Of a stretch of 64,000 nt of DNA, positions 1 to 59,200 are shown in pieces; within the stretch, counting starts at the first letter, position 1, and the number at the start of each line of letters is the position of its first letter. Location of the stretch: contig JBBELK010000328.1 in NCBI GenBank assembly GCA_037783545.1, forward strand, positions 682,001-746,000, in the 5' to 3' direction. The notes beneath the pieces were generated by a model that was not told the DNA's origin, searched no databases, and was given only the letters and a program-made list of their open reading frames with translations. This stretch comes from Henricia sp. BOLD:AAB3569 (lineage: Eukaryota; Echinodermata; Asteroidea; Spinulosida; Echinasteridae). The translations under genes were made by a program, and so were the position numbers.

Positions 1-2207
1 CAGAACAGCTGACGTTGAATGGTATGGAATACCGCTACTACTTACCATGCTTCACATGAATGGTATGGAATACCGCTACTACAAGTACTTAACATCTCTA
101 AGTCAACTGATGCAGTTGCTTCATCCATGACAAGGATACGAGACTTGCGGAGGAATGCCCGTGCCAAACAGAACAGCCGAAGTTGAATGGTATGGAATAC
201 CGCTACTACTTACCATGCTTCACATGAATGGTATGGAATACCGCTACTACATGTACTTACCATCTCTAAGTCAACTGATGCAGTTGCTTCATCCATGACA
301 AGGATACGAGACTTGCGGAGGAATGCCCGTGCCAAACAGAACAGCTGACGTTGAATGGTATGGAATACCGCTACTACTTACCATGCTTCACATGAATGGT
401 ATGGAATACCGCTACTACATGTACTTACCATCTCTAAGTCAACTGATGCAGTTGCTTCATCCATGACAAGGATACGAGACTTGCGGAGGAATGCCCGTGC
501 CAAACAGAACAGCTGACGTTGAATGGTATGGAATACCGCTACTATACTTACCATGCTTCACATGAATGGTATGGAATACCGCTACTACATGTACTTACCA
601 TCTCTAAGTCAACTGATGCAGTTGCTTCATCCATGACAAGGATACGAGACTTGCGGAGGAATGCCCGTGCCAAACAGAACAGCTGACGTTGAATGGTATG
701 GAATACCGCTACTACTTACCATGCTTCACATGAATGGTATGGAATACCGCTACTACATGTACTTACCATCTCTAAGTCAACTGATGCAGTTGCTTCATCC
801 ATGACAAGGATACGAGACTTGCGGAGGAATGCCCGTGCCAAACAGAACAGCTGACGTTGAATGGTATGGAATACCGCTACTATACTTACCATGCTTCACA
901 TGAATGGTATGGAATACCGCTACTACTTACCATGCTTCACATGAATGGTATGGAATACCGCTACTATACTTACCATGCTTCACATGAATGGTATGGAATA
1001 CCGCTACTACATGTACTTACCATCTCTAAGTCAACTGATGCAGTTGCTTCATCCATGACAAGGATACGAGACTTGCGGAGGAATGCCCGTGCCAAACAGA
1101 ACAGCTGACGTTGAATGGTATGGAATACCGCTACTACTTACCATGCTTCACATGAATGGTATGGAATACCGCTACTACTGTACTTACCATCTCTAAGTCA
1201 ACTGATGCAGTTGCTTCATCCATGACAAGGATACGAGACTTGCGGAGGAATGCCCGTGCCAAACAGAACAGCTGACGTTGAATGGTATGGAATACCGCTA
1301 CTATACTTACCATGCTTCACATGAATGGTATGGAATACCGCTACTACATGTACTTACCATCTCTAAGTCAACTGATGCAGTTGCTTCATCCATGACAAGG
1401 ATACGAGACTTGCGGAGGAATGCCCGTGCCAAACAGAACAGCTGACGTTGAATGGTATGGAATACCGCTACTACTTACCATGCTTCACATGAATGGTATG
1501 GAATACCGCTACTACATGTACTTACCATCTCTAAGTCAACTGATGCAGTTGCTTCATCCATGACAAGGATACGAGACTTGCGGAGGAATGCCCGTGCCAA
1601 ACAGAACAGCTGACGTTGAATGGTATGGAATACCGCTACTATACTTACCATGCTTCACATGAATGGTATGGAATACCGCTACTACTTACCATGCTTCACA
1701 TGAATGGTATGGAATACCGCTACTATACTTACCATGCTTCACATGAATGGTATGGAATACCGCTACTACATGTACTTACCATCTCTAAGTCAACTGATGC
1801 AGTTGCTTCATCCATGACAAGGATACGAGACTTGCGGAGGAATGCCCGTGCCAAACAGAACAGCTGACGTTGAATGGTATGGAATACCGCTACTACTTAC
1901 CATGCTTCACATGAATGGTATGGAATACCGCTACTACATGTACTTACCATCTCTAAGTCAACTGATGCAGTTGCTTCATCCATGACAAGGATACGAGACT
2001 TGCGGAGGAATGCCCGTGCCAAACAGAACAGCTGACGTTGAATGGTATGGAATACCGCTACTACTTACCATGCTTCACATGAATGGTATGGAATACCGCT
2101 ACTACTGTACTTACCATCTCTAAGTCAACTGATGCAGTTGCTTCATCCATGACAAGGATACGAGACTTGCGGAGGAATGCCCGTGCCAAACAGAACAGCT
2201 GACGTTG
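1..2207 (-). repeat. Minisatellite of ~168 bp built from the 3' part of exon e28 and its splice donor
   Basis: Twelve copies are visible (landmark GACAAGG at 129, 297, 465, 635, 803, 1057, 1224, 1394, 1562, 1816, 1984, 2151) and the array runs off the left end. Read on the minus strand a unit is 93 bp of e28 (from CAACGTCAGC to GAGATG) plus about 75 bp of the following intron. The intron part carries an internal duplicate of the segment starting with a GGTAAGTA donor-like site. Two units are longer (254 bp) because this sub-repeat is doubled again. Spacing 170-168-254-167/168 recurs, making a 759-bp higher-order unit. Only the rightmost copy joins the unique 5' part of e28. The repeated 83-codon plus-strand frames at 857 and 1616 are by-products. 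Confidence 0.95.
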
Positions 2208-2248
2208 TCCAACGCTGAAATTATCACCACCTTCTGAAACTTGAAAAT
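2115..2248 (-). CDS. SUR-like exon e28: NBD2 signature motif and Walker B
   Basis: Acceptor TTTGGTTGCAG, donor ATG|GTAAGT; 134 bp, enters in phase 1 and leaves in phase 0. With the last G of e27 it gives D then [22 protein letters not shown] and [16 protein letters not shown]. The signature LSGGQ is FSVGQ, as is normal for ABCC NBD2, and the catalytic glutamate after Walker B is present (DE). A second AG 15 bp further in would drop five residues. This is the only copy in the array with an acceptor. The exons for the H-loop and C-terminus must lie left of base 1. Confidence 0.93.
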
Positions 2249-56200: not shown

Positions 56201-59200
56201 GAGAATGTGAGCCAACTTGCCAATGAACAGGATGAATAGAAGCACAGTATAGTACATGTACCTGCAGAGCGATTCTAACATGCACAGCTTGTATGGTGAG
56301 GTAATACTGAGCCGATCTCATACAGAGAATGTGAGCCAACTTGCCAATGAACAGGATGAATAGAAGCACAGTATAGTACATGTACCTGCAGAGCGATTCT
56401 AACATGCACAGCTTGTATGGTGAGGTAATACTGAGCCGATCTCATACAGAGAATGTGAGCCAACTTGCCAATGAACAGGATGAATAGAAGCACAGTATAG
56501 TACATGTACCTGGAGAGCGATTCTAACATGCACAGCTTGTATGGTGAGGTAATACTGAGCCGATCTCATACAGAGAATGTGAGCCAACTTGCCAATGAAC
56601 AGGATGAATAGAAGCACAGTATAGTACATGTACCTGGAGAGCGATTCTAACATGCACAGCTTGTATGGTGAGGTAATACTGAGCCGATCTCATACAGAGA
56701 ATGTGAGCCAACTTGCCAATGAACAGGATGAATAGAAGCACAGTATAGTACATGTACCTGGAGAGCGATTCTAACATGCACAGCTTGTATGGTGAGGTAA
56801 TACTGAGCAGATCTCATGCAGAGAATGTGAGCCAACTTGCCAATGAACAGGATGAATAGAAGCACAGTATAGTACATGTACCTGCAGAGCGATTCTAACA
56901 TGCACAGCTTGTATGGTGAGGTAATACTGAGCCGATCTCATACAGAGAATGTGAGCCAACTTGCCAATGAACAGGATGAATAGAAGCACAGTATAGTACA
57001 TGTACCTGGAGAGCGATTCTAACATGCACAGCTTGTATGGTGAGGTAATACTGAGCCGATCTCATACAGAGAATGTGAGCCAACTTGCCAATGAACAGGA
57101 TGAATAGAAGCACAGTATAGTACATGTACCTGGAGAGCGATTCTAACATGCACAGCTTGTATGGTGAGGTAATACTGAGCCGATCTCATACAGAGAATGT
57201 GAGCCAACTTGCCAATGAACAGGATGAATAGAAGCACAGTATAGTACATGTACCTGGAGAGCGATTCTAACATGCACAGCTTGTATGGTGAGGTAATACT
57301 GAGCCGATCTCATACAGAGAATGTGAGCCAACTTGCCAATGAACAGGATGAATAGAAGCACAGTATAGTACATGTACCTGCAGAGCGATTCTAACATGCA
57401 CAGCTTGTGTGGTGAGGTAATACTGAGCCGATCTCATACAGAGAATGTGAGCCAACTTGCCAATGAACAGAATGAATAGAAGCACAGTATAGTACATGTA
57501 CCTGGAGAGCGATTCTAACATGCACAGCTTGTATGGTGAGGTAATACTGAGCCGATCTCATGCAGAGAATGTGAGCCAACTTGCCAATGAACAGAATGAA
57601 TAGAAGCACAGTATAGTACATGTACCTGGAGAGCGATTCTAACATGCACAGCTTGTATGGTGAGGTAATACTGAGCCGATCTCATGCAGAGAATGTGAGC
57701 CAACTTGCCAATGAACAGGATGAATAGAAGCACAGTATAGTACATGTACCTGCAGAGCGATTCTAACATGCACAGCTTGTATGGTGAGGTAATACTGAGC
57801 CGATCTCATGCAGAGAATGTGAGCCAACTTGCCAATGAACAGAATGAATAGAAGCACAGTATAGTACATGTACCTGGAGAGCGATTCTAACATGCACAGC
57901 TTGTATGGTGAGGTAATACTGAGCAGATCTCATACAGAGAATGTGAGCCAACTTGCCAATGAACAGGATGAATAGAAGCACAGTATAGTACATGTACCTG
58001 GAGAGCGATTCTAACATGCACAGCTTGTATGGTGAGGTAATACTGAGCCGATCTCATGCAGAGAATGTGAGCCAACTTGCCAATGAACAGAATGAATAGA
58101 AGCACAGTATAGTACATGTACCTGGAGAGCGATTCTAACATGCACAGCTTGTATGGTGAGGTAATACTGAGCAGATCTCATACAGAGAATGTGAGCCAAC
58201 TTGCCAATGAACAGGATGAATAGAAGCACAGTATAGTACATGTACCTGGAGAGCGATTCTAACATGCACAGCTTGTATGGTGAGGTAATACTGAGCCGAT
58301 CTCATGCAGAGAATGTGAGCCAACTTGCCAATGAACAGGATGAATAGAAGCACAGTATAGTACATGTACCTGGAGAGCGATTCTAACATGCACAGCTTGT
58401 ATGGTGAGGTAATACTGAGCAGATCTCATACAGAGAATGTGAGCCAACTTGCCAATGAACAGGATGAATAGAAGCACAGTATAGTACATGTACCTGGAGA
58501 GCGATTCTAACATGCACAGCTTGTATGGTGAGGTAATACTGAGCCGATCTCATGCAGAGAATGTGAGCCAACTTGCCAATGAACAGGATGAATAGAAGAA
58601 TGTAGCCATTGGAGAAGAATTCATGCACTGTGATGAAATGCTGCGTAGTCTGCTGAGAAATAACAAGGATGAAAATCACTTCAATGATTAGGAAGGGAAT
58701 CTTAGGTTCCAACTTAAGCCCGCCGCACACGAGAGCTATGTGCTGAGCCAAAATTCATTCGTGGCCGATGGCGTAAGGAGATAGCTCTCGTGTGCGGGCA
58801 ACTTACGTGAGCATTTGGTCACTCGTGCCACTTGAGACAAATATCTAACGTGTTTGATAATTTTGGCCTCGCGTGGCCAAAATCTCACGTGTGCGGGGGT
58901 GATGAGCCAAGTGCTGAGCTAAAATAAATGTAGCTGGCCAATCAAAAACCATCCTCATATTCACGTGATATGAATACAGTGCGCGCGGGCACCGCTGAGG
59001 TCACCAAACTTTTGCTAAAGTGTGGTGACCTTGGCGGAGTTCGCGTGCGCGCGCTGTTTTCGTATCGCGCGCGTGGTTTTAATTGGCCAGCTACATTTAT
59101 TTTAGCTCAGCACTTGGCTCAGCACCCCCGCACACGTGAGATTTTGGCCACGCGAGGCCAAAATTATCAAACACGTTAGATATTTGCCTCAAGTGGCACG

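Follow-up and report, generated by a model that had tools for sequence, protein, structure and literature searches.

How can one gene carry several long tandem arrays, each lying across an exon-intron border, and still be read as one gene? The question is raised by a stretch of 64,000 nucleotides from the sea star Henricia sp. BOLD:AAB3569 (assembly GCA_037783545.1, contig JBBELK010000328.1, here C328, positions 682,001 to 746,000), which we call the window throughout. The DNA is eukaryotic, and its arrays are carried by a minus-strand gene similar to SUR/ABCC9. An initial annotation, made from the letters alone, had placed four arrays on borders of exons 28, 22, 11 and 3 of this gene (e28, e22, e11 and e3); Tandem Repeats Finder (TRF) and an exon map built on homology and GT/AG splice sites confirm this placement. 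A fifth array lies on exon 29 (e29), about 5 kb below the window. We consider it probable that all five belong to the 'mirage' type of minisatellite, here in a sea star, that is, duplications that crossed a border by chance, were tolerated and were then expanded by unequal exchange.

The identity of the gene is supported by two kinds of comparison. The solved structures that best match the minus-strand exon peptides are ABCC9 and ABCC8 (SUR), and the best protein relative is an ABCC9-like protein of Patiria miniata (1583 residues, 57% identity, entire query covered). The exon map was obtained by tblastn with this Patiria protein followed by a fit demanding GT and AG; the e28 donor was read directly from the sequence. 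The window holds 28 exons and 27 introns, and one further coding exon above and two below bring the total to 31. In a tree made by a quick method from 120 listed homologs, for which long-branch warnings were given, the protein groups with those of Patiria miniata and Acanthaster planci (Shimodaira-Hasegawa-like approximate likelihood ratio test, SH-aLRT, 100), outside that pair. Judged from sequence, an asteroid is the most likely host, and amphioxus is rejected. The exons that matter for the window arrays are the following.

58494 to 58652, minus strand: exon 3, whole (acceptor 58652, donor 58494; homology and GT/AG fit)
49391 to 49549, minus strand: exon 4, downstream partner of the e3 array (homology and GT/AG fit)
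37472 to 37547, minus strand: exon 10 (e10), upstream partner of the e11 array, with a phase-1 donor GTATGT
28746 to 28854, minus strand: exon 11, whole, the Walker A exon of nucleotide-binding domain 1 (homology and GT/AG fit)
8367 to 8480, minus strand: exon 22, whole (homology and GT/AG fit)
2115 to 2248, minus strand: exon 28, whole, with signature and Walker B of nucleotide-binding domain 2 (homology and GT/AG fit)

The arrays were located by TRF, and copies were counted as splice segments with at most five errors.

49782 to 58598, minus strand: e3 donor array, 124 bp x 71 (TRF, segment count)
28757 to 37188, minus strand: e11 acceptor array, 128 bp x 66 (TRF, segment count)
8382 to 8808, minus strand: e22 acceptor array, 146-147 bp x 3 (TRF 147 x 2.9)
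1 to 2207, minus strand: e28 donor array, the part in the window, with units of 168 bp and longer (TRF)
window -5503 to -4994 (C328:676497-677006): e29 acceptor array, the fifth, 72 bp x 7, below the window

In all five arrays the unit spans one exon-intron border of the map. The e3 unit consists of the final 105 of the 159 nt of e3, a GTACATGT donor and about 19-24 nt of intron 3. The e11 unit contains about 30 nt of intron 10, including TTTCAG, and the initial 98 of the 109 nt of e11; the e22 unit contains about 48 nt of intron 21, including CTTGCAG, and the initial 99 of 114 nt. In the e28 unit, 93 of the 134 exon nucleotides are followed by a GTAAGT donor and by an inner 41-bp repeat that repeats a ATGGTAAGT donor. 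The e29 unit includes 42 of 63 nt. The share of the exon in the unit is therefore about two thirds to nine tenths, and the value of one half given initially for the four window arrays was too low. The division into two donor arrays (e28, e3) and two acceptor arrays (e22, e11) is borne out, as are the copy numbers for e22, e11 and e3; for e28 the previous figure of at least 12 rises to 25 donor segments when the flank is counted, with 12 or 13 in the window and the array running on to about window -3950. The four window arrays fill about 19.9 kb by TRF, close to the 20 kb first estimated, and all five together span 24.3 kb.

From the true exon, donor arrays run in the downstream direction and acceptor arrays in the upstream direction. 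The true end of e3 is the 5'-most copy of its array and the true start of e11 is the 3'-most copy, and in each of the five arrays exactly one end copy has both splice sites, as the initial annotation had described for its four. None of the five arrays contains units with both an acceptor and a donor, as found in arrays of duplicated or mutually exclusive exons. The borders of e11 and e28 match those of paralogs, judged by match ends. A search for self-repeats within 1.5 kb at E 0.001 returned none at 26 of the 31 exons, and the other five each have at least three copies. The locus is present once in its assembly (740.7 Mb, 2104 contigs) as judged by the exact e3 unit pattern, which gave 70 matches, all in the e3 array on C328.

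The first step on the proposed route would be a short tandem duplication, arising by slippage or by end joining with little or no microhomology, that happens to span one exon-intron border. The founding junctions are consistent with such an event. Overlap with both original flanks is CTTCT at e3, CAAAGAT at e29, CA at e28 and T at e11, the e28 overlap being the least certain figure since it was taken from the far end of a complex array. Microhomology of 1-7 nt at four of five junctions is what ordinary tandem duplication would give, and the idea that an R-loop or splicing-linked mechanism is needed is not supported.

The second step would be tolerance. A border array could be tolerated since an intact exon survives when exactly one border is copied: the spliceosome would still find the outermost copy with both sites, and the remaining copies would be intron. 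Of the mechanisms named initially, the best fit is selection against exon-breaking arrays: 26 of 31 exons are clean, and one whole exon is left by the copied pieces in every case. Inspection of the open reading frames and sequence shows that e3, e28, e11 or e22, if lengthened, would run into a stop codon before the end of the first additional unit. Wrong choices in these four arrays should therefore go to nonsense-mediated decay; the end exon would normally be used, and wrong mRNAs would mostly be destroyed. The e29 unit is of another kind: its 72 nt are in frame and without a stop, and each use of an upstream acceptor would add 24 residues.

This last property could be taken to mean that the copies are used, and that protein or mRNA variants arise as one or another of dozens of equal sites is chosen, by regulation or stochastically. 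A usable site is indeed kept in nearly all scored copies. GT is retained in 69 of 69 e3 donors and in 23 of 25 e28 donors (two read TT), and AG in 59 of 59 e11, 3 of 3 e22 and 6 of 6 e29 acceptors; copies of odd length were left unscored (two in e3, seven in e11, one in e29, none in e22 and e28). However, the mean unit divergence is 0.7-1.7% in the four arrays that have more than one unit of modal length, and at this divergence the retained dinucleotides are no sign of selection. No conservation of the exon part that would indicate use of the copies was seen in e3 or e11. The exon part is if anything less conserved, with mean differences per site of 0.017 against 0.000 for the intron part in e3 and 0.019 against 0.005 in e11 (no significance test), as expected for non-coding copies. 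Since, in addition, no inner unit has both exon sites and lengthened exons meet a stop in the four arrays other than e29, we regard functional use of the copies as extremely improbable.

From two copies upward, unequal exchange, slippage and conversion would expand and homogenise an array, in this gene to as many as 71 copies. The order of unit variants bears on this third step. The e3 array contains 23 unit types among 70 units, in shuffled order and with four common two-letter sites; the e11 array contains 45 types among 65 units, also shuffled; and no higher-order period was found in the unit order of either array up to lag 12. Hypervariable minisatellites likewise have shuffled unit variants and homogenised arrays; what sets the sea-star arrays apart is that they sit on coding exon borders.

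Long arrays of near-identical units are hard to assemble, and copy numbers could be wrong, so that assembler stutter across a short or heterozygous duplication has to be considered. Mirrored match positions on two other contigs, C340 and C370, also suggest that both haplotypes were kept in places of the assembly. Yet the shuffled, aperiodic order of units is the pattern of a recombining minisatellite and unlike that of stutter. Five independent arrays with differing unit lengths, and a decayed paralog array described below whose longer pieces are 79-83% identical and cannot be stutter, also speak against this explanation, and a report on the lancelet PGBD5 gene states that comparable repeats there were confirmed with new sequence data (PMC3902484). 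An artefact is very unlikely.

Arrays formed in this way would decay over time, and one paralog appears to have caught this stage. A genome search with e27-e30, in which all 127 candidates were scored, gave 89 matches, and C666 is the only place outside C328 where two matches to one stretch lie no more than a few hundred bases apart. This SUR paralog (C666:79800-80600) has four acceptor segments that agree with the query at 33, 25, 24 and 21 of 33 nt, the last preceding one whole exon. With longer pieces that are 79-83% identical, we read it from sequence as an old, decaying acceptor array on the other border of exon 28. Border arrays thus recur outside this gene, in the paralog and in what seems to be the neighbouring gene (105 bp x 10.7, described below), as the minisatellite account would lead one to expect. 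A genome search with the whole Patiria protein was also run, with 30 of 432 candidates scored.

The paralogs also bear on the proposal that the e11 array records the birth of an intron, in which an exon was tandemly duplicated at AG|GT and the present intron 10 begins at the first donor and ends at the last acceptor. Read in frame, the 30 nt before the e11 acceptor resemble the residues encoded by e10 and the ABCC peptide LHDISVNIPS, with a BLOSUM score of 18; the next best of the 27 introns scores 8, and among the window's 2372 AG sites, with arrays masked and exons included, one scores equally high. This idea, strong on controls within the window, was rejected by comparison with ABCC paralogs. 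A search of the genome with e11 (all 115 candidates scored) gave 88 matches, 67 of them on C328, where they comprise the 66 array copies and e10. The other 21 lie elsewhere, each as a single copy, and some of these may be two haplotypes of one place. Three distant ABCC paralogs have the same exon-start residue, one nucleotide off. Of the 21 matches elsewhere, 20 start at query residues 42-51 (the border lies at 51/52) and one at 65, and none crosses from further up. The e10-like stretch came out of an inspection of 54 flanks, and paralog matches, too, extend a few residues into the intron. Because paralog exon and match starts agree at the e11 border, intron 10 looks old. The e10-like resemblance is probably due to chance, and we give the birth of this intron from the array very little credence.

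Several observations weigh against minisatellites that arose by chance and were merely tolerated. The founding junction of e22 is ambiguous, and the overlap at e11 is just 1 nt. The in-frame, open e29 unit means that nonsense-mediated decay cannot police wrong choices there. Above all, this neutral account explains the anatomy of the arrays and does not fully explain why five of them are in one gene. Two intronic arrays of the same gene lie off exon borders.

5525 to 6183: 78 bp x 8.4 (TRF), a control within the gene
37980 to 38415: 231 bp x 1.9 (TRF)

Counting TRF rows with a unit of at least 72 bp and excluding short-period rows (under 50 bp), five of seven long-period arrays are on exactly one border. 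For comparison, each array was collapsed to one unit, leaving 48,339 bases and 31 exons (the ends of e29 being imprecise by a few bases), and seven units, with lengths as observed, were placed at random over positions that are purely intronic or cross one border. Tolerance by itself would give 0.98 border arrays (P 0.0008), and the same test without the tolerance condition gives P 0.0006; these P values are post hoc, because the gene was chosen for its arrays. The earlier statement that border hits exceed chance is thus upheld within the gene, with that qualification, and an extra linkage or a regional proneness may act on this gene. In the 78-bp unit a tRNA-like stretch, TAGCTCAGCTGGTAGAGCA, had been seen by eye; ARAGORN found no gene and Rfam gave nothing at gathering score in the window.

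A more specific form of such linkage would be mutation tied to splice sites: border duplications might be favoured, in this gene or in the genome, by R-loops, by transcription or a polymerase stalling at borders, or by microhomology rich in AG|GT. Beyond the placement test, the neighbouring gene below the window, HEATR5-like by Pfam in three of the six peptides given, offers some support. A donor-border array of 105 bp x 10.7 (window -45642 to -44515, C328:636359-637486) lies on an exon-like frame with an acceptor and a CAG|GTAAGT donor, a frame assigned to the HEATR5-like gene by position (upstream on its strand) and frame alone. Another array in this gene, 81 bp x 10.7 (window -15265 to -14400), ends exactly at an acceptor AG and repeats the tract and AG with no exon sequence. 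Exon-like frames flank a third array of the region (93 bp x 50). In a PDB search the HEATR5 exon had no match and the acidic exon nothing significant.

The initial annotation had also suggested looking for border repeats genome-wide, and we did so by way of tandem donor consensus sites, with figures that are matches and not arrays. Three CAGGTRAGT at 91-121 bp spacing gave 187 matches and the reversed control gave 15, a difference in favour of splice-linked mutation. Among the 100 of 187 matches listed, however, 55 are one C325 array and 37 one interspersed 121-bp family, with six on C104 and two on C186, and three CAGGTAAGT at 122-152 bp spacing gave just 21 matches, which belong to three arrays, where the control gave 14. 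The scans are mixed and do not settle an enrichment. The 21 e11 paralog places outside the gene, all single, likewise argue against splice-linked mutation, and we judge it unlikely. The same holds for a lineage-wide version of it, which we would put forward only tentatively: in this sea-star lineage, tandem duplication would be drawn to splice sites and exon borders would be minisatellite hot spots, the extreme case being the present gene, where 5 of 31 exons are affected, perhaps together with the HEATR5-like neighbour, and repeated action on paralogs would have left decayed arrays.

These scans also brought up sequences of separate interest. Among the matches listed, the 121-bp tandem family, with CAGGTGAGT in its units, was found on C1, C45, C46, C82, C92, C152, C161 and C245. 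A 95-bp x 5 array at C186:636500-637700 lies in an open frame and its junctions create CAG|GTGAGT; the frame would be restored if the first of these donors were joined to the last CACAG, and this may be an intronised exonic array. At C104:1073200-1074900, a 111-bp x 13 array shows a coding-like frame, and most of its units contain CAG|GTGAGT.

Border-crossing minisatellites as such are not new, and comparison with amphioxus does not support an unprecedented status for these arrays. According to the report on amphioxus 'mirages' (PMC3087553), these are tandem repeats over intron-exon boundaries of Adh3, the globins BflGb6 and BflGb9, and other genes, with six and three copies of 150-160 bp units in two BflGb6 haplotypes and units of 10-72 bp in Adh3. 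In what that report describes, they share with the sea-star arrays a unit spanning one boundary, 5' and 3' types, AG or GT in many copies and an authentic end copy; the array likewise evolves in concert with the boundary copy left out, and splicing was judged undisturbed by reverse transcription PCR. The sea star differs in not being a cephalochordate, in having up to 71 copies over 8.8 kb and in carrying five arrays in one gene. We take the cephalochordate host of the mirage reports as a record of occurrence and not as part of the definition.

A second lancelet example is PGBD5, in which 60- and 108-bp repeats on exons 3 and 4 either contain splice sites or lie right next to them (PMC3902484). 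As in the sea star, there is more than one such array per gene, but PGBD5 has two, with 2-7 copies, in another host. The potato RdRp gene provides a case in which duplication across an intron-exon boundary made an intron (PMC4974935). There, and in the AGGT model described with it, a boundary-crossing duplication keeps its splice signals as in the sea star; the product there is a new intron, whereas the intron that holds the e11 array looks old. No report of such arrays in sea stars or other echinoderms was found in the open-licence PMC literature. The arrays described here are larger and more crowded than the amphioxus cases, and constitute an extreme example in a group for which no report was found.

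The surroundings of the arrays contain some further elements. A minus-strand open reading frame of 538 aa for a piggyBac-like transposase (39723-41336; best match 58% identical over 95%) lies within an intron, and a heptamer array, GGGGCGG x 8.7, is found at 39621-39681. Above the window, C328:755002-757132 holds a partial duplicate, in inverted orientation, of exons 24-27 from the SUR-like gene, with a 47-bp x 21 array about 42 bp past it. TRF on the 200 kb above the window lists further arrays.

If the arrays are minisatellites of the amphioxus kind, as we think probable, boundary minisatellites now extend to an echinoderm, and their rate and bias become countable in well-assembled deuterostome genomes. 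Gene models beside such arrays can be wrong, and should be treated with caution. In one pre-mRNA of this sea star, intron 3 would offer about 71 nearly equal donors and intron 10 would offer 66 nearly equal acceptors, all in their native context. This gene therefore offers a natural experiment on splice-site competition, in which preference for the nearest site, for the first one transcribed and for exon definition can be set against each other.

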